From an uncultured Gammaproteobacteria bacterium (lineage in GTDB: Bacteria > Pseudomonadota > Gammaproteobacteria > GCA-002705445 > GCA-002716945), in NCBI GenBank assembly GCA_902628335.1, contig CACOMO010000004.1:62001-126000 (forward strand): 64,000 bases of DNA. The letters run 5' to 3'. A program made the position numbers and the translations under genes. The notes under the pieces are model-generated. The model saw only the letters and a list, made by a program, of their open reading frames with translations. It searched no databases and was not told the DNA's origin. This document shows positions 4,441-63,074 of this stretch, piece after piece (position 1 is the stretch's first letter; every line of letters starts with the position of its first letter).

Positions 4441-5310
4441 CTAGAGATAATTAAATATTAGACCAAAAGTAACTATTAATCCAAATATATTATTATTTTC
4501 AAAAGCTGATATACATTGATAAGGAATTCTATTACTAGCCAGTATATTTTGGTAGATTATACATAAACAGGACAACAGTATGCAGAAATAGTAAAAAAAT
4601 CCAAAATTATTCAATATGCCTATAAACAAAAATATCCAAACAACTGAAAAATGTAGATACTTGGAAAATTTAATATCATTACTACCAAAAAAAATAGCCG
4701 AAGATTGTACGCCAACTTTCTCATCATCCTTTTTGTCAGCCATGGCGTAGTACGTATCATAGACGATTGCCCAAATAACTGTTAAAAAATATAACAGAAA
4801 GCAATTAAGATTCATATCACCTGTTTCAACAATAAACACCATTGGTATGCTAGATCCAAATGCTAGGCCTAATATAAGCTGAGGTATTTTGAAAAATCTT
4901 TTCATGAGTGGGTATACTAATAATAGAAAAAAAGATAATATCGCGAAAATTAAAATTTCTAAACCCAGCATTAATAATAAAGATAAGCAGACAAGCATTA
5001 AAATTGTAAAAATACTCAATGCTTCTCTATTTGTTACTTTGCTACTTGCTAGAACTCTTGTCTTTGTTCTCTCAACTTTCTTGTCAATATCTTGATCAAA
5101 ATAATCATTTATAATGCATCCTGCAGATCTAGTAGCGATAATGCCGATGGCAAAAATTAACATATAGATCAGACTGGGCTGACCTTCTGTAGATATAAGA
5201 AAAGCCCAAAGAACAGGCCACATCAATAAATAAAAGCCAATTGGTTTGTCTACTCTCATGAGTTCAAGATAAAGCTTTATCTTATTGCGATCTATATTAT
5301 ATTTTCCCAT
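4441..5310 (-). CDS. ubiA: 4-hydroxybenzoate polyprenyltransferase (ubiquinone synthesis)
   Basis: An integral membrane prenyltransferase that attaches the polyprenyl tail to 4-hydroxybenzoate. Both Asp-rich diphosphate-binding motifs are present: NDYFDQDID near 69 and [13 protein letters not shown] in the second half. Hydrophobic segments run throughout. The ORF track extends 20 codons upstream, but the start at 5310 ([10 protein letters not shown]) gives 289 residues, the usual UbiA length, and aligns with LMRVDKPIG near the N-terminus. With this start it overlaps the Fae-like gene by 14 bases. It supplies the ubiquinone later hydroxylated by ubiH, ubiI and coq7 in this window. Confidence 0.95.
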
Positions 5311-5845
5311 CAATACCCATCTGGAAGTATTTGTGAATAATCGAATCTTGATTTTTAAGTAACCAATCAATATCTGGTTTATTTGTCATTGCCTTATGTA
5401 TTGCTGATGACGTGGCTTTTCTGTGAATATCAAACAAAACTTTATGATCTAAATTATCATCTTTCGAAACAGATGGATTGAGCCAAACCGAAACAATGAT
5501 TCCAAGATCGTTAACTCTGTCTTTCGGAATGTCATTATTCTTAATGGAGTCAAGAACACCATTAGCAATAGCAGCTTGAACTGTACCCATTAAAATATTT
5601 GTATATCTATTATCATTAACTGTGACTTTACTTACCATTAGCGTCGGAGGTCTTACCATGATATCTGTATTCATTATAGCTAACACTTTTGAGTGTCCTT
5701 TAGTCTGATTACCCATTAAGTTTGCAAAAGCTGTCCCAAAGGGACCATCCATCTCACCTATGACAACTTCTGGTTCAGCAGCCGTTCCAGGAGGACCACC
5801 CGCGACAAGGGCTTCGCCAACTCTTAAAGTTATTTTTTCACTCAT
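5297..5845 (-). CDS. Fae-like protein (formaldehyde-activating enzyme family), probably a divergent paralogue
   Basis: The 182-residue protein follows the Fae pattern: VGEALV near 9, GTAFANLM, PPTLMVSKVTVND, VQAAIANGVLDSI, NDLGIIVSVWL and HRKATSSAIHKAM. Canonical Fae condenses formaldehyde with tetrahydromethanopterin in methylotrophs. From memory, its N-terminal catalytic motif reads GDGNEVAHIDLIIG; here the equivalent stretch is GTAAEPEVVIG, with Glu or Pro where the histidine should be and about two extra residues. I therefore name the family but not the reaction. It is the first gene of the minus-strand group leading into ubiA and bioB; the gap before it has an A-rich, weak ribosome-binding region. 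Possible roles are formaldehyde binding, sensing or a related condensation. Confidence 0.8.
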   Translation of the reverse strand: MSEKITLRVGEALVAGGPPGTAAEPEVVIGEMDGPFGTAFANLMGNQTKGHSKVLAIMNTDIMVRPPTLMVSKVTVNDNRYTNILMGTVQAAIANGVLDSIKNNDIPKDRVNDLGIIVSVWLNPSVSKDDNLDHKVLFDIHRKATSSAIHKAMTNKPDIDWLLKNQDSIIHKYFQMGIDGKI

Positions 5846-5907
5846 AATTTTTTCCTTTCATATTTTTATGACTATAATATATGTTAAGTAAAAGAAATGA
5901 AAATATA

Positions 5908-6435
5908 ATGATAAGATCTTTCGAAAATAATTATCCAGATATCTCAAAATCTGCTTATATTGATGAGCAATCGACTGTTATAGGGAATGTGAAAATAGGT
6001 GATGATAGTGCAATGTGGCCACAGTCTGTTGCAAGAGGTGATATTAATCCAATCATTATTGGAGCAAGAACAAACATTCAAGACGGGTCAATCATCCATG
6101 TAACACATAAAAGTGATTACTCAGTGGGATTCAGCGTTACTATAGGTGATGATGTTACTGTGGGTCATTCAGTAATAATACATGCATGTCAAATCGGTAA
6201 TCGAGTTTTGGTAGGAATGGGTAGTATCATTTTGGATGGTAGTGAAATACCAAATGAAGTAATGATTGGTGCTGGCTCTTTAATTAGTCCTGGAAAGAAA
6301 CTCGAGAGTGGCTTTCTATATCTAGGCTCACCTGCAAAAAAAGTAAGAGAGCTAAATGATAACGAGAAAAACTTTCTTTTATATTCAGCAAAAAGTTACG
6401 TTGACTTAAAAAATAGACATATCACAAAGATCTAA
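5908..6435 (+). CDS. yrdA: Gamma-carbonic-anhydrase-like hexapeptide-repeat protein
   Basis: A left-handed beta-helix protein of the YrdA/PaaY group of the gamma-carbonic anhydrase superfamily. It has repeating hexapeptide steps (VIGNVKIGDDS, VTIGDDVTVGH, VLVGMGSIIL, VMIGAGSLI) and histidines in IHVTHKS and VGHSVIIHAC that match the zinc ligands. The catalytic role in YrdA proteins is unsettled. The ORF track starts at 5881, but ATG 5908 (MIRSFENNYP) matches where YrdA proteins begin and gives 175 residues. Its 3' end overlaps the convergent aroE by 14 bases; yrdA next to aroE is also the enterobacterial neighbourhood. Confidence 0.88.
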   Translation: MIRSFENNYPDISKSAYIDEQSTVIGNVKIGDDSAMWPQSVARGDINPIIIGARTNIQDGSIIHVTHKSDYSVGFSVTIGDDVTVGHSVIIHACQIGNRVLVGMGSIILDGSEIPNEVMIGAGSLISPGKKLESGFLYLGSPAKKVRELNDNEKNFLLYSAKSYVDLKNRHITKI

Positions 6436-52980: not shown

Positions 52981-54162
52981 ATGTCAGGATATCATTTTTT
53001 ATTTGTACCAGGACCATCGAATGTACCGGCAGCAGTTCAACAAGCAATTCACTGCCCGATGGAAGATCATAGAAATCCAACCATACCAGATTTAATTCAA
53101 CCAATCACAGAAGATCTTAAAAAAATTCTTTTAACAAAAGATGGGAAAGTAGTCTTTTTCCCCTCATCTGGGACGGGATGCTGGGAAGCAGCACTTCAAA
53201 GCACACTTAATGTTGGAGATAAAGTACTGGGTGCTAGCTTCGGTCAGTTCAGTATGCTTTGGCTTGATATGTGTAAAAGACTAAAATTTGAACCTATAAC
53301 GATGGAAGAAGAATGGGGAACAGGTGCAAATCCGGAGAGTTATCATAAGCATTTGTCTGAAGATAAAAATCATGAAATTAAAGCAGTTCTTGTTTGTCAA
53401 AATGAGACCGCGACTGGGGTAAGAAGTGATGTTGCCGCAATAAGAAAAATTCTCGATGACCTCAATCACCCGGCATTATTAATGGTTGACGGTGTGAGCT
53501 CTGTTGCAAGTTATGAATTTAAGATGGACGAATGGGGCGTTGACTGTATTGTTAGTGGTTCACAAAAAGGTTTTATGTTACCAGCAGGCTTAGGTATTCT
53601 CGGCGTAAGTCAAAAAGCAATTCAAGCTATGAAAGATTCAGAGTATCCTACATGTTATTTTGATGTTGCAGATATGATTGAAAAGTTAGACGGTGGCTAT
53701 TTGCCATATACTCCACCTGTAAATCTATTGCGTGGTTTTAGAGTTGCAATAGATCTTATTTTTGAAGAAGGTTTAGAGAATATATGGAAAAGACACTATC
53801 GATTGGCTGAGGGTACAAGAAAAGCTATCACTGAAGGTTGGGGATTAAACTTGTGCGCTAAAGAGCAGAAATGGCAATCAGATACTGTCTCGGCAATTGT
53901 AGTACCAGAAGGAGCAGACGCGGTGCCTGTAATTAGTACTGCATTTCATAAGTACAATCTTGCACTGGGAGCAGGACTGGCTAAAGTTGCTGGTAAAGTT
54001 TTTAGAATCGGTCACTTAGGTGATTTGAACGAATGTATGTTATTTGGAGCCATATCTGGTGCAGAAATGGCCATGATAGATAATGGTATAAAAGTAGAGC
54101 CTGGTAGTGGAGCTGCAGCTGCATCTAAGTACTGGACGGAAAACCCTTCAGGAGGCAAATAA
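52981..54162 (+). CDS. sgaA: Serine-glyoxylate aminotransferase
   Basis: A PLP-dependent class V aminotransferase that converts serine and glyoxylate to hydroxypyruvate and glycine. The 393-residue protein has FVPGPSNVPAAVQQAI near 8, PSSGTGCWEAAL near 61, MVDGVSSVAS near 163 and the Schiff-base lysine in SGSQKGFMLPAGLG near 196, and ends in the family's RIGHLGDLNECML. Alanine-glyoxylate aminotransferases are related, but the downstream hydroxypyruvate reductase and glycerate kinase favour the serine-cycle role. AGAAGGG gives a good ribosome-binding site, and the gene leads the cassette with a one-base overlap to hprA. Confidence 0.92.
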   Translation: MSGYHFLFVPGPSNVPAAVQQAIHCPMEDHRNPTIPDLIQPITEDLKKILLTKDGKVVFFPSSGTGCWEAALQSTLNVGDKVLGASFGQFSMLWLDMCKRLKFEPITMEEEWGTGANPESYHKHLSEDKNHEIKAVLVCQNETATGVRSDVAAIRKILDDLNHPALLMVDGVSSVASYEFKMDEWGVDCIVSGSQKGFMLPAGLGILGVSQKAIQAMKDSEYPTCYFDVADMIEKLDGGYLPYTPPVNLLRGFRVAIDLIFEEGLENIWKRHYRLAEGTRKAITEGWGLNLCAKEQKWQSDTVSAIVVPEGADAVPVISTAFHKYNLALGAGLAKVAGKVFRIGHLGDLNECMLFGAISGAEMAMIDNGIKVEPGSGAAAASKYWTENPSGGK

Positions 54163-55133
54163 TGTCAAAACCATCAGCAATTGTCACTCGTAGGTGGCCA
54201 GATGAATGTGAGAGTAGATTAAAACAATTATTTGATGTAACTCTCAATGAGTCTGACGAACCATTCACTACAGACCAGTTAAAGTCTGCACTACAGAGTT
54301 GTGATGTTCTTATGCCAACTGTTACGGATAAGATCACTGCTGATGTCCTCAGTGTTGAGAACAGAAAAGCTAATATGATTGGTAACTTTGGTGTTGGTTT
54401 TAATCACATAGATATTGAGAAGGCAAAGGAATTAGGAATAACAGTTTCTAATACTCCAACTGTTTTAACTGATTGCACTGCAGATATAGCTATGTCTCTT
54501 ATTTTAATGGTTGCAAGACGAGTTGGAGAAGGCGAGAGAGAACTGCGTGCAAATAATTGGACAGGATGGAGACCTACTCACCTTCTAGGAACTAAAGTAA
54601 CTGGAAAAAAACTTGGTGTTATTGGTTTTGGTAGAATTGGACAGGCAGTCGCTCAGCGCGCACATCATGGTTTCAACATGGAAATATTGTTTTGGGATCC
54701 ATTTGATATTTCGTCCGATGTAATAAACAATCTTAACGCCAAGAAATTAGATACTATTGAGGATATTTGTAAGGAATCTGATTTTGTATCAATAAATTGC
54801 CCAGCAACGAAAGAAACATTGCATTTAATGAATGCTGAGAGGTTTAAACTTATGAAAAAATCAGCATTTGTTATCAACACGGCAAGAGGAGATATAATTG
54901 ATGAAAAGGCGTTAGTGGATGCGCTAAACAATAATGAGATAGCTGGTGCAGGGTTAGATGTTTTTGAGACTGAGCCAAATTTACCAGATGAACTAAAAAC
55001 ACTTGAGAACGTTGTTTCATTCCCACACTTAGGTAGTGCATCAATAGAAACACGTATCGCCATGGGTAACATGGCAATAGATAATAGCGTAGCATTCTTC
55101 GAGAATAAAGATCTTCCAAATAAAGTTGTTTGA
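54162..55133 (+). CDS. hprA: Hydroxypyruvate/glyoxylate reductase (D-2-hydroxyacid dehydrogenase)
   Basis: An NAD(P)H-dependent D-2-hydroxyacid dehydrogenase that reduces hydroxypyruvate to glycerate. The 323-residue protein has GNFGVGFNHIDIEKA near 75, the Rossmann loop LGVIGFGRIGQAVAQRA near 146, the catalytic Arg in NTARGDIIDEKAL, Glu in DVFETEPNLP and the catalytic His in FPHLGSASIETR. This matches the GyaR/GhrB-like branch. Substrate choice is inferred from its place between sgaA and the glycerate kinase. Stop and next start are separated by 5 bases. Confidence 0.9.
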   Translation: MSKPSAIVTRRWPDECESRLKQLFDVTLNESDEPFTTDQLKSALQSCDVLMPTVTDKITADVLSVENRKANMIGNFGVGFNHIDIEKAKELGITVSNTPTVLTDCTADIAMSLILMVARRVGEGERELRANNWTGWRPTHLLGTKVTGKKLGVIGFGRIGQAVAQRAHHGFNMEILFWDPFDISSDVINNLNAKKLDTIEDICKESDFVSINCPATKETLHLMNAERFKLMKKSAFVINTARGDIIDEKALVDALNNNEIAGAGLDVFETEPNLPDELKTLENVVSFPHLGSASIETRIAMGNMAIDNSVAFFENKDLPNKVV

Positions 55134-55138
55134 CAATA

Positions 55139-56437
55139 ATGTCGCTTAGAGAAAATGCGCTAAACATCTATACCTCTTGTCTTGAAAAACTAGAGCCAAG
55201 AAAACGTGTTTACGATTACTTGTTAAGCTTAAAAACAAGTATAGTTGGTTGCGATAAAATATTTCCAGTAGCTTTTGGTAAAGCAGCATTTTCAATGATG
55301 GACGGTTTAATAAATTATTTAAAGTCCACAAATTCAACAGACAAGATACATAATCTACCAATTGTAATATCGAATTCTAAGAGTGTACCAGATTATCCAA
55401 TTTCCGAATTCATTACTGCTCACCCGACGCCTGATGAAAATAGTGTCCTTGCAGCAAAAACAGTGTTGCAATACACATCTGAAATGAATGCACATGATCT
55501 ATCGATTAATCTGATCAGCGGTGGGGGTTCATCTCTCCTATGTCTCCCACATGACGATATATCGCTCAATGATAAAGTATTAGTAAATAATCTTCTGCTC
55601 AAATGTGGCGCCAGTATAAATGAAATAAATACAATCAGAAAACATCTGTCTAAAATTAAAGGTGGACGTCTATCTGAGCATGTTTATCCTTCTAAGTCGA
55701 TTTCATTAATCATCTCAGATGTGATTAATGATGATGTAAGCACAATAGCGAGTGGCCCAACGTCAATTGATCACACTACGTATAGTGATGCTATTGATAT
55801 CATTCATCGTTACAAAATCGAGAGAGAGATCCCAGAGAATGTAATAGATCTTCTGAGAAGAGGTAAAAGTGGTCAAGTGTCTGAGAGCCCTAAAAATCTC
55901 GATAATACTGATAATCATATAATCTGTAGTAATAAAATATTTAGAAAAGAATTAATTGAGGCAGCAAATAATTCAGGTTTTAATTCGTTTCTAATTGATA
56001 GAGATATTAATGGAGTTGCGAGCGATGAAGCAGTTAGATTGATTGATGATTATAACAGTATCATAAGTAATAGTTCGTCTAGAAGAATTGCAATTGTATC
56101 AGGTGGTGAAACGGTAGTAGATATTAAGGGCTCGGGTAAAGGTGGAAGAAATCAAGAACTAGGATTGTCATTCTTACACAGACTAAATGGCGAATTACTA
56201 AATAGGAATTGGTTGTTTCTCTCAGTCGGTACAGATGGAATTGATGGTCCAACGGACGCTGCAGGAGCAATCATCAGCTCAGATATGATTGATAAGTATG
56301 CGGCACTAGCTTCAAACATAGACAAATATCTAGACAATAATGATTCGTATAACTGCTTAAATCAACTTGATTCACTTTACATTACTGGACCATCCGGGAC
56401 AAATGTTGCAGACATCCAGATTTTGTTAGTTGATTAA
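55139..56437 (+). CDS. gckA: Glycerate 2-kinase, MOFRL family
   Basis: Phosphorylates D-glycerate, in this family normally to 2-phosphoglycerate. The 432-residue protein has the N-terminal DUF4147 region (VAFGKAAFSMMDG near 44, THPTPDENS-like TAHPTPDENS, LISGGGSSLLCLP near 129, IRKHLSKIKGGRLSE near 164) and the C-terminal MOFRL domain (SGGETVVDIKGSGKGGRNQELGL near 323, GTDGIDGPTDAAGA). The ORF track uses TTG 55130; ATG 55139 is more likely. The cassette sgaA-hprA-gckA is complete and tightly packed. It ends 4 bases into the convergent hemL. Confidence 0.93.
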   Translation: MSLRENALNIYTSCLEKLEPRKRVYDYLLSLKTSIVGCDKIFPVAFGKAAFSMMDGLINYLKSTNSTDKIHNLPIVISNSKSVPDYPISEFITAHPTPDENSVLAAKTVLQYTSEMNAHDLSINLISGGGSSLLCLPHDDISLNDKVLVNNLLLKCGASINEINTIRKHLSKIKGGRLSEHVYPSKSISLIISDVINDDVSTIASGPTSIDHTTYSDAIDIIHRYKIEREIPENVIDLLRRGKSGQVSESPKNLDNTDNHIICSNKIFRKELIEAANNSGFNSFLIDRDINGVASDEAVRLIDDYNSIISNSSSRRIAIVSGGETVVDIKGSGKGGRNQELGLSFLHRLNGELLNRNWLFLSVGTDGIDGPTDAAGAIISSDMIDKYAALASNIDKYLDNNDSYNCLNQLDSLYITGPSGTNVADIQILLVD

Positions 56438-59872: not shown

Positions 59873-59920
59873 AATAGCCAAAAAATAACAGATTAATATT
59901 CTTTTAGTTTTAGAAATTTA

Positions 59921-59929
59921 TGGTATATT
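59921..59929 (+). promoter_or_regulatory. Extended -10 promoter candidate for the ferredoxin gene
   Basis: TGGTATATT fits an extended -10 element (TGn followed by TATATT) about 28 bases upstream of ATG 59958. No good -35 is needed for this type. AAGGAG at 59946-59951 then gives a strong ribosome-binding site, so this gene looks independently and well expressed. Confidence 0.4.
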
Positions 59930-59957
59930 GGAATCTTATTCAGCCAAGGAGAAAGGA

Positions 59958-60299
59958 ATGGTATTTGGATTATTCAAGAAAAAGGAGCCAGTCAAGGTTA
60001 CCATTAAAAGTACAGGCGACGAATTTATGTGTGAGCCCGGTGAACTATTAATGAAAGCTGCTCTTAAAGCTAAGATTGCATGGCCTCTGTCGTGCAAAGT
60101 AGGAAGTTGCGGATCATGCAGAGCTACAATTTTGGAAGGAGAGGGAAAATATCCTCCAAGTCCTGCGGACCCTGTTATGCTTCTTTATAAAGAAGAAATA
60201 GATAGTGGTATGGTAATAGCTTGCCAATGGACGCCAACCACTGATATTGTTGTCGATGTTGAGGTCGGAAAAGAAGGTGACAAAAGAGGAATGATTTAA
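59958..60299 (+). CDS. Plant-type [2Fe-2S] ferredoxin
   Basis: From ATG 59958 (MVFGLFKKKEP) a 113-residue protein with the chloroplast-type cluster site: SCKVGSCGSC near 46 (three Cys) and the fourth Cys in MVIACQWTPT. A short basic N-terminal segment precedes the fold. Related domains occur as the electron-transfer part of oxygenase reductases. No oxygenase or reductase gene is adjacent, and the partner is unknown. The ORF track start at 59928 is unsupported; AAGGAG is placed for 59958. It is convergent with plsC. Confidence 0.9.
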   Translation: MVFGLFKKKEPVKVTIKSTGDEFMCEPGELLMKAALKAKIAWPLSCKVGSCGSCRATILEGEGKYPPSPADPVMLLYKEEIDSGMVIACQWTPTTDIVVDVEVGKEGDKRGMI

Positions 60300-60309
60300 C
60301 TCTTTATCT

Positions 60310-61080
60310 TCACTTACTTAGATTTACACTCGTAATTTCATCCCTAGAATTTTTCACTAAATCAAAGCTTTGTCTTGCTAAATCGTATGGTTGTTGATTA
60401 CATCTTATTGTCTCATGAAATTTAACTAAAACAGTAGTCCTAAATCTTGACATACATTTAATTGAGATATTTAGCAATGTTTGACTTTTATCTGCCCAAC
60501 ATATACTGAGGTCGTTAGCGTTATCTCTTGGATAGTCAATTGGATAATGTATTAAAACAGGTTGAGTTTTCTTATTGTCACCAATTATTGATTCAAGAAG
60601 TTTACTGTGGAATTTTTTTATCTGCTTTCCATCACCAATTCTCCCTTCAGGAAAGATGACAATTTTCTTGTTAAGTTCTATGTAGTCTCTCATTTTCTTA
60701 ATAACACTATCATTGTCTCTTATATCACCTCTTCTTATAAATATAGTTCCTGTTTTTGAGGATAAATGACCTATAACTGGCCAACTCCTTATTTCAGATT
60801 TTGCGATAAAATTTACAGGTATTAGTGACTGCAAAATTATAATATCAAAAAGTGTCACATGGTTTGAAATAAATGTATTAACAGAATTATCAAGATTACC
60901 TATTCTGATAATATTAAAGCCAAATAAGAAAGATAGAATTTTCATCCAAATATGACTAATTTTGTGATGAACAGGTTTTAATTTAAGATTATCTGCAGGA
61001 AAGAATATAAGTATAGTCAGTCCTAACACAATGTGTATAACAATTAGGGGTAGTCTAATTAAAATCAGAAATAAACCCAC
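60310..61080 (-). CDS. plsC: 1-acyl-sn-glycerol-3-phosphate acyltransferase
   Basis: Adds the second acyl chain to lysophosphatidate in membrane lipid synthesis. The 256-residue protein has N-terminal membrane segments, the HX4D catalytic motif in ISNHVTLFDIIIL near 91, TIFIRRGD, and the substrate motif IFPEGRIGDGK near 157. Other LPLAT acyltransferases (for example of ornithine lipids) remain possible. Its ATG overlaps the stop of the DUF255 gene by one base. Confidence 0.85.
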   Translation of the reverse strand: MGLFLILIRLPLIVIHIVLGLTILIFFPADNLKLKPVHHKISHIWMKILSFLFGFNIIRIGNLDNSVNTFISNHVTLFDIIILQSLIPVNFIAKSEIRSWPVIGHLSSKTGTIFIRRGDIRDNDSVIKKMRDYIELNKKIVIFPEGRIGDGKQIKKFHSKLLESIIGDNKKTQPVLIHYPIDYPRDNANDLSICWADKSQTLLNISIKCMSRFRTTVLVKFHETIRCNQQPYDLARQSFDLVKNSRDEITSVNLSK

Positions 61081-63074
61081 TAATACCTCATTTTAGATGA
61101 CAATTGGTCAAGATCAATAATTGGCTCAGAACACACAAAATTTTCACATATGTAAGCAGTAAATTCCCCTTTACTTATTTTGCTGTCAATATTTTCTATT
61201 CCAGTCTTGAGATTTTTATCAATAATAAAAACTTGGTCTTGTACTCCAGCAATACTCAATATTTTGTCTTTAATATATTTTATTTTAGAATTATCACATC
61301 TAATGAAAATCGTCTTTCTGGGATTATATTCTGGGATAGATGCAATCATATTACAATGAGAATCGTATGATCTGTTGAGTGATGTGGTTGATGAATTGAA
61401 AGTCTCTTCTGCTAATTCCTTAAAGTGAATTTTACCAGTGATATCAAAAATCTTGTGCAAGACGTCAATCATAACACTATTACCAGATGGCATTGATTCA
61501 TCCGTATATAGCTTAGGCCTATAAATGAGGTCCTGATTAAGAATTGATGAAAAGAAGAAACCACCATGCTCTTTATCTAGAAAATTTTGCTCACATGTAT
61601 CAATTAACTTCATCAGAAATAAATATGTCTCTGGATCCCATTGTAGTTTTAGAAACTCTATACAAACATTTGATAAAAATGCGTAGTCATCCAAGTAAGC
61701 GTGAAATTCAGGTTGTTCATGAAAACACGCATACAATTTATCACCATCCCAAAGTTTATCTTTTATGAACGCAAATGATTTTGATGCTGATTCATAATAT
61801 TTTATTTCATTTGTGATTTTATACGTATCCAGCAGACCTTTGATCATAAGACAGTTCCATGAGGTTAAGATTTTCTTATCAGTACCTGGGGGTACTCTAG
61901 TATTTCTTTCTTTTTTTAATTTATCTAAAATGCTATCAATTACAATAGCATTACTATTAAACTCTTCTATATTTTTTTGTGTGATGTGCAGGTGAAAATT
62001 ATCCTCAAAATTTGGTTTCTCATAAACTACATATACTTTTTTAAAAATTCTCAATTCCTCTTCCGTAAGTAGCTTGTTAAGTTCTCTGTCAGACCAGACA
62101 TAATATTTTCCTTCTTTGCCATCTGAATCCGCATCAATAGTAGAGCTAAAACCACCATTAGCATTTTGCATGTCTGACATTGCCCAGTCGCAGGTCTCAA
62201 TAGCTTTTTTTAAATATATTGGATCACCGAAAACTCTGAAAGCGTCACACATAATGGATACCAGAGGACCATTATCATAGAGCATTTTCTCGAAGTGTGG
62301 GATCATCCAGAGCTCATCTACTGAATATCGAAAAAAGCCTCCACCTACTTGGTCATAGATCCCTGAGTAACACATTCTATCGATGGATAGTTTTAAAAGA
62401 TCAGATGATTCCGAATCAAGTTTTTTATGATTATCTAAGAGTAGTTTAAGATTTGTACACCTAGGAAATTTAGGCGCAGATCCAAAACCACCATGAACTT
62501 TATCAAATGATGAGATAAGCGAGTCTATGGTCCGTTGACTGATATTTTCTTCTGCTAACTTTTCGTTTGTATTGTTGAGATTATCAAATATATTTTGAAT
62601 CTGAACATTTTGAGTTTTAATATCGTGTTGTTTATTATGAAAAAAATCAGATACTCTCTCTAATATTTGTTTAAAAGCAGGTAGTCCATAGCGTTCTTCA
62701 GGCGGGAAATATGTTCCTGCAAAAAAAGGGAATTTATCATCGGTCATGAATACTGTCAGTGGCCATCCACCTGATTTACCTGTAATAATTGTTTGCGCCA
62801 TTTGATATATCTTATCTAAATCCGGCCTTTCCTCTTTATCAAGTTTAATATTGATGAAATTCTTATTCATCAATTCAGCCGTTTCTTTATTTTCAAATGA
62901 TTCATGAGCCATAACATGACACCAGTGACAAGCCGAATATCCAACTGATAGTAAAATCGGCTTACCTTCTTTTCTAGCAATATCAAAAGCCTCCTCACCC
63001 CAAGGATACCAATCAACAGGATTTTCAGCATGCTGTTGTAGATAGGCACTCTTTTCATTTCCCAATTTATTCAT
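61080..63074 (-). CDS. DUF255 thioredoxin-domain protein (YyaL/SPATA20-like)
   Basis: A 664-residue protein with an N-terminal thioredoxin-like domain ([13 protein letters not shown] near 17, [18 protein letters not shown] near 43 with Cxx[14 protein letters not shown] near 100) and a long (alpha/alpha)6-like C-terminal part ([47 protein letters not shown]). Homologues from bacteria to humans are near full length here, but the enzymatic role is unknown. It shares a transcript with plsC, and is divergent from lgt. Confidence 0.92.

Follow-up and report, generated by a model that had tools for sequence, protein, structure and literature searches.

A Fae paralogue of the Fae2/Fae3 type with an invariant glutamate in place of the general-acid histidine in an uncultured gammaproteobacterium

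Results

A complete Fae-family gene overlaps a ubiA-like gene

The window (the whole stretch of DNA that was analysed, 64,000 nucleotides in length) contains a complete open reading frame on its minus strand, with an ATG at 5845 and a TAA at 5297, that encodes a paralogue of formaldehyde-activating enzyme (Fae). The features of the window that are used below are as follows; the functions of the UbiA-like, carbonic-anhydrase-like, and serine-cycle-like genes were read from sequence.

5297 to 5845, minus strand: Fae2/Fae3-type paralogue of Fae that lacks the catalytic His (called type A below), 182 amino acids; intact reading frame, assigned by Pfam, comparison with Methylobacterium extorquens Fae, AlphaFold2, and Foldseek
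5768 to 5776, minus strand: codons for Glu24-Pro25-Glu26, which by alignment stand in place of the canonical His-Ile-Asp
5846 to 5880, minus strand: short intergenic region, common to the divergent gene, with a putative AGGA-type ribosome-binding site directly upstream of the ATG of the Fae paralogue
4441 to 5310, minus strand: downstream gene for a UbiA-like prenyltransferase
5881 to 6435, plus strand: divergent gamma-carbonic-anhydrase-like gene
52981 to 56437, plus strand: serine-cycle-like genes, metabolic context only
52981 to 54162, plus strand: serine-glyoxylate aminotransferase
54162 to 55133, plus strand: 2-hydroxyacid/hydroxypyruvate reductase
55130 to 56437, plus strand: glycerate kinase

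The ubiA-like gene probably starts with an ATG at 5310, before the Fae paralogue has ended (overlap at 5297-5310), so the two genes may be co-transcribed in the window's lineage. The same overlap suggests translational coupling of the ubiA-like gene to the Fae paralogue in the window's family. The order gamma-carbonic-anhydrase-like gene, type A, ubiA was kept only in that family.

The sequence-only reading had assigned the 182-residue protein to the Fae family, and this was borne out by the intact reading frame, located on the minus strand, and by a match to the Pfam Fae model (PF08714) that covered positions 1-158 of 159 (1.4e-58; 197.9 bits versus a cut-off of 27). The comparison with M. 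extorquens Fae (1y5y) gave 1.5e-18. The protein also passed TIGR03126, the NCBI equivalog model for Fae, with 130.3 bits against a cut-off of 118.05; the canonical Fae of the same genome scored 232.4 bits, and automatic annotation would name both Fae genes of this genome as one enzyme. The hexulose-phosphate synthase domain of the bifunctional Fae-Hps protein, which has the Fae domain in common, was absent from the window protein (NF009833, 104.3 bits versus a cut-off of 274). An AlphaFold2 model based on an alignment of 66 relatives, from which one plasmid-collection sequence had been left out, showed a mean pLDDT of 95 and a pTM of 0.91. The closest solved structures found by Foldseek were those of M. 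extorquens Fae (1y60/1y5y), with TM scores by query of 0.81-0.86, rmsd values of 1.6-1.8 Å, and 28-30% identity; TM scores to 1y60/1y5y reached 0.86/0.94, and the predicted structure thus has the Fae fold.

Glutamate occupies the position of the general-acid histidine

We take the His of the canonical A-H-I-D motif to be the general acid of Fae, and Asp, Leu, Lys, Thr, and Gln residues to line its site for the pterin tetrahydromethanopterin (H4MPT). In the window protein this motif reads A-E-P-E, within G-T-A-A-E-P-E-V-V-I-G, such that Glu24 (codon GAA, window positions 5776-5774) aligns to the catalytic His and Glu26 to the following Asp. The loss of the His in this stretch had been noticed at the outset and was confirmed by the alignment; no shifted catalytic His was found in the type A loop, as the His columns lie at residues 51, 134, 141, 150, and 171 of the window protein. 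The accompanying claim that the loop is about two residues longer held against M. extorquens Fae and failed against the canonical Fae of the same genome, relative to which the loop is one residue shorter (GESLVVTEGGDNEIAH). Because the difference in length depends on the reference, it is not diagnostic. The window protein has Lys73, Thr75, and Gln90 at the presumed pterin-site positions, and Lys73 and Gln90 were invariant across 66 sequences.

Two histidine-less subfamilies lie beside canonical Fae

Close relatives of the window protein were present at 44 loci in public genomes (62-96% identity), belonging to small marine gammaproteobacteria, Methylococcales, Methylophilales MAGs, Methylocella tundrae, and marine alphaproteobacteria. 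When Fae sequences from further genomes were added, three groups were obtained: canonical Fae, type A (with the window protein), and type B. Type A spanned alpha-, beta-, and gammaproteobacterial methylotrophs. FastTree placed 80/80 canonical sequences together with a support of 1.0 and joined types A and B with a support of 0.986, and IQ-TREE analysis of 66 sequences separated A plus B from canonical Fae on a long branch (UFBoot 99), with values of 83 for type A and 97 for type B. The window protein lay outside the canonical clade in both trees, so the grouping inside it that the sequence-only reading had named as evidence against a variant Fae was not seen. The protein is a member of a large, highly conserved Fae2/Fae3-type subfamily and no singular variant, a point absent from that reading.

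In the tree set, the position of the catalytic His was occupied by Glu in 64/64 type A, by Met in 20/20 type B, and by His in 80/80 canonical sequences; the following Asp, present in 80/80 canonical sequences, was Glu in 64/64 type A and 20/20 type B. Since all 64 distinct type A sequences carry Glu at the first of these positions, chance or sequencing error behind the missing His was excluded. Glu24-Pro25-Glu26 was invariant in type A, which also had three His residues not seen in canonical Fae, His51, His134, and His141, that were invariant or nearly so. No sequence of type A or B lacked the presumed pterin-site Lys and Gln; the Thr was likewise retained, or replaced by Ser in a few.

Type A shares with canonical Fae (Fae1; M. 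extorquens AM1, 1Y5Y/1Y60; TIGR03126) the fold, a full-length alignment, the presumed pterin-site Lys/Thr/Gln, and the conserved C-terminal His171. It differs in the two replacements by Glu, in about 30 further positions that are fixed differently (many of them around the presumed site), in a longer WLNPSV..LDHK region, in forming a separate clade, and in the location of its gene outside the H4MPT cluster; within one genome, the two proteins were about 31% identical. Type B, marked by TDAMPE, is a sister clade that resembles type A in the change of Asp to Glu and in the presence of Lys/Thr/Gln, whereas it has Met at the His position and is 38-46% identical to the window protein. A type B gene follows fhcBADC on an Azoarcus plasmid (L225 5989-6519), and another follows a gene for a methyl-accepting chemotaxis protein on an Azospirillum plasmid (L222 6986-7519); these neighbourhoods may hint at sensing by type B.

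The host genome carries a canonical fae in an H4MPT cluster

The genome of the window, a 0.91-Mb MAG of 86% completeness, contains exactly two Fae genes. The second, a canonical fae of the kind that the sequence-only reading had proposed to look for elsewhere in the genome, was indeed present (contig C1) and clusters with mch, a homologue of beta-RFAP synthase, fhcB, fhcA, fhcD, and fhcC; nearby are an mtdB-like open reading frame with no NCBIfam match and a gene for methanethiol oxidase (mtoX). The place next to mch and fhc is thus occupied by the canonical copy and not by type A. MtoX adjoining the H4MPT cluster (L004 11890-13254; G000:C1, near 59890-61254) scored 715 bits against a cut-off of 650. 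Neither the window's genome nor the relatives searched had a PQQ methanol dehydrogenase above the model cut-off, and methanethiol is therefore a plausible source of formaldehyde in this organism, which may be a C1-sulfur methylotroph that combines a serine cycle with a genome of about 1 Mb.

Type A is under strong constraint

Among 19 genomes with both proteins (171 pairs), the mean between-genome identity was 78.3% for type A and 72.3% for canonical Fae, with type A the more conserved in 140/171 pairs. The dN/dS of type A among close relatives was 0.015-0.05. Two Fae matches were detected in all 11 window-family genomes of at least 90% completeness, and type A was kept in streamlined genomes of about 1 Mb. 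The pair of type A and canonical Fae recurred in an order of alphaproteobacteria with small genomes, including MAG MED657, which has been assigned to TMED127/Methylaequorales (PMC12542740). This strong conservation and the retention in streamlined genomes indicate that type A is not decaying, and it probably does a real job. The absence of the catalytic His is the sole point in favor of a functionless decaying duplicate or an assembly or reading artefact; the low dN/dS, an identity no lower than that of canonical Fae, and the occurrence of Glu in 64/64 sequences across many lineages and assemblies speak so strongly against such an origin that we dismiss it, and decay to a pseudogene is refuted by the dN/dS values and the pairwise conservation.

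Carriers of type A use methane, methanol, methylamine, and probably methanethiol; what they share is the H4MPT pathway. Among 369 gammaproteobacteria sampled across the class, Fae was found in 49 and Mch above the cut-off in 48, these being the same set except for one 75%-complete MAG. Three genomes (G405, G539, and G040) had a His-less Fae without Mch; in the order of G405, genomes with a single Fae type missed either one, as expected from incomplete single-cell and metagenome assemblies, so the missing Mch need not mean a function independent of H4MPT. In two alphaproteobacterial genomes, type A was present and both Mch and canonical Fae were missing, and the patchy occurrence of Fae in their order suggests incomplete assemblies. 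In G714, a 1.5-Mb Methylophilales MAG that may be incomplete, types A and B were present and canonical Fae was not detected. This MAG resembles a Methylophilaceae isolate that has Fae2 and lacks true Fae (PMC4109929).

Type A could be a redundant, still active Fae in which Glu24 does the job of the His. Such a function would fit the presence of most presumed pterin-site residues, the score above the equivalog cut-off, and the MAG and isolate just described, although the MAG without canonical Fae may be incomplete. Against redundancy, both forms are retained in streamlined genomes, and the two proteins are widely diverged within a genome. Furthermore, complementation of an M. extorquens fae1 mutant failed with fae3 of M. 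alcaliphilum, a likely relative of type A; M. alcaliphilum itself showed no growth defect when fae3 was deleted (PMC11748545). We regard a redundant Fae as improbable.

Type A is linked to N-methylglutamate genes in two lineages

Outside the window's family, type A mostly stood alone, and no regulator or receptor gene was conserved beside it. An assignment of function from neighbours was rejected, as no common theme was found: radical SAM, deaminase, symporter, GAPDH-like, phosphate-binding protein, and globin genes varied by lineage. A radical-SAM gene (L036 1440-2342 and homologues) recurred beside type A, in divergent orientation, at several Methylococcales loci, and a radical-SAM neighbour was seen at nine loci (L027, L033, L035, L036, L038, L040, L094, L096, and L143). 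A bacterial-like globin gene adjoins type A on a Methylobacterium plasmid (L221 7634-8041) and at L148, L153, and L154, the last three of which represent one gammaproteobacterial family (genomes G034, G191, and G393).

Type A heads an N-methylglutamate cluster (mgdABCD-gmaS-mgsAB) in two Methylophilales MAGs (L034 8001-16053, located in G714, and the same region of L037), where it is directly upstream of the N-methylglutamate dehydrogenase genes, after which come a gmaS-like gene and mgsAB. The large subunit of N-methylglutamate dehydrogenase bears a folate-binding GCV_T domain. On the Methylobacterium plasmid, type A comes directly after mgsABC-gmaS and before the globin gene. GMAS was as frequent in gammaproteobacterial genomes with type A (7/22) as in genomes with Fae and without type A (8/26; Fisher p = 1), and none above the cut-off was found in the window's family. 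A methylamine-specific function was rejected: despite the operon linkage in two lineages, there was no genome-wide association with GMAS, and the window's family is without it. In M. universalis, fae3 was up 11.7-fold on methylamine and its deletion produced no growth phenotype; the authors proposed a shuttling of C1 units between the two carriers, tetrahydrofolate (H4F) and H4MPT (PMC5023235).

These observations bear on the possibility that type A is a re-tooled enzyme, in which Glu24, with Glu26, would provide acid-base catalysis for some other C1 reaction of a reduced pterin. It might, for instance, free formaldehyde from another C1 carrier or take it up from there, and so connect methylene-tetrahydrofolate with H4MPT. 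An invariant Glu-Pro-Glu and the linkage to N-methylglutamate operons, with the folate-binding domain encoded next to type A in the two MAGs, favor this possibility, as do the new His51, His134, and His141, the dense fixed differences around the site, the gene order on the plasmid, and the induction and proposed shuttling in M. universalis. The equal frequency of type A with and without GMAS, the lack of GMAS in the window's family, and the unaffected growth of the M. universalis mutant weigh against it, and we consider such re-tooling rather unlikely. We also regard as rather unlikely a more far-reaching proposal, namely that type A would be an H4MPT-dependent enzyme in its own right that relies on Glu-based catalysis, possibly involving the new conserved His residues, for a novel C1 step such as formaldehyde-level transfer between H4F and H4MPT, needed even in ocean methylotrophs of about 1 Mb.

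Discussion

The window protein is almost certainly a Fae2/Fae3-type paralogue of Fae, with Fae3 the likelier of the two, in which the Fae fold and most of the presumed H4MPT site are combined with an invariant Glu that replaces the general-acid His. Type A may correspond to Fae3 and type B to Fae2; the linkage to N-methylglutamate operons and the distribution in Methylophilaceae give indirect support for the assignment of type A. Like the Fae2/Fae3-type homologues described previously (PMC11748545, PMC5023235, PMC4109929), type A is a second or third paralogue beside canonical Fae and is usually stand-alone; its position in N-methylglutamate operons of Methylophilales MAGs is consistent with Fae3 in Methylophilaceae. 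Fae-like groups 2-4 have been described as proteins of unknown function (PMC11748545), and sensing or regulatory roles have been proposed for Fae2/Fae3-type homologues (PMC3728764, PMC11748545). No discussion of the loss of the His in these homologues was found in the literature searched.

Type A appears not to be the main Fae, because its catalytic His is missing, the canonical gene is the one in the H4MPT cluster, and complementation by a likely relative failed. The sequence-only reading had suggested formaldehyde binding or sensing, or a different acceptor, as possible roles. The retained Lys/Thr/Gln, along with the occurrence of type A in lineages with the H4MPT pathway, argue that its acceptor would still be H4MPT-like, and the rebuilt active site most likely continues to bind this pterin. 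Our tentative interpretation, to which we assign a probability of about 0.4 (0.42), is that type A may be a pterin-binding accessory C1 protein that buffers or senses rather than performing bulk condensation. The protein would still bind H4MPT or methylene-H4MPT, with Lys73, Thr75, and Gln90 holding the pterin, and would lack normal Fae activity; the bulk condensation of formaldehyde with H4MPT would be left to the separate canonical Fae, and type A would bind formaldehyde or buffer or report the state of the formaldehyde/methylene-H4MPT pool. We slightly prefer this buffering or sensing role over a different C1 catalysis by Glu24 because no growth phenotype was observed in two organisms. Two points stand against an accessory role: the invariant Glu24-Pro25-Glu26 and the approximately 30 fixed differences could equally fit a different catalytic function, and type A has no conserved regulator or receptor neighbour outside the window's family.

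Canonical Fae is the enzyme by which methylotrophs capture formaldehyde, a toxic compound, and fae is used as a marker of methylotrophy. Standard models give His-less proteins the name formaldehyde-activating enzyme (EC 4.2.1.147), which creates an annotation trap. The protein class itself is already known. What appears to be new, as far as the literature searched shows, are the fixed replacements of the His in both subfamilies and the constraint on type A together with its retention in streamlined genomes. What Fae2/Fae3-type proteins do has been a question for about 20 years, and these proteins are now split into two His-less subfamilies with a fixed Glu or Met at the catalytic position. Of the two, type A is constrained no less strongly than true Fae and persists in streamlined marine methylotrophs.
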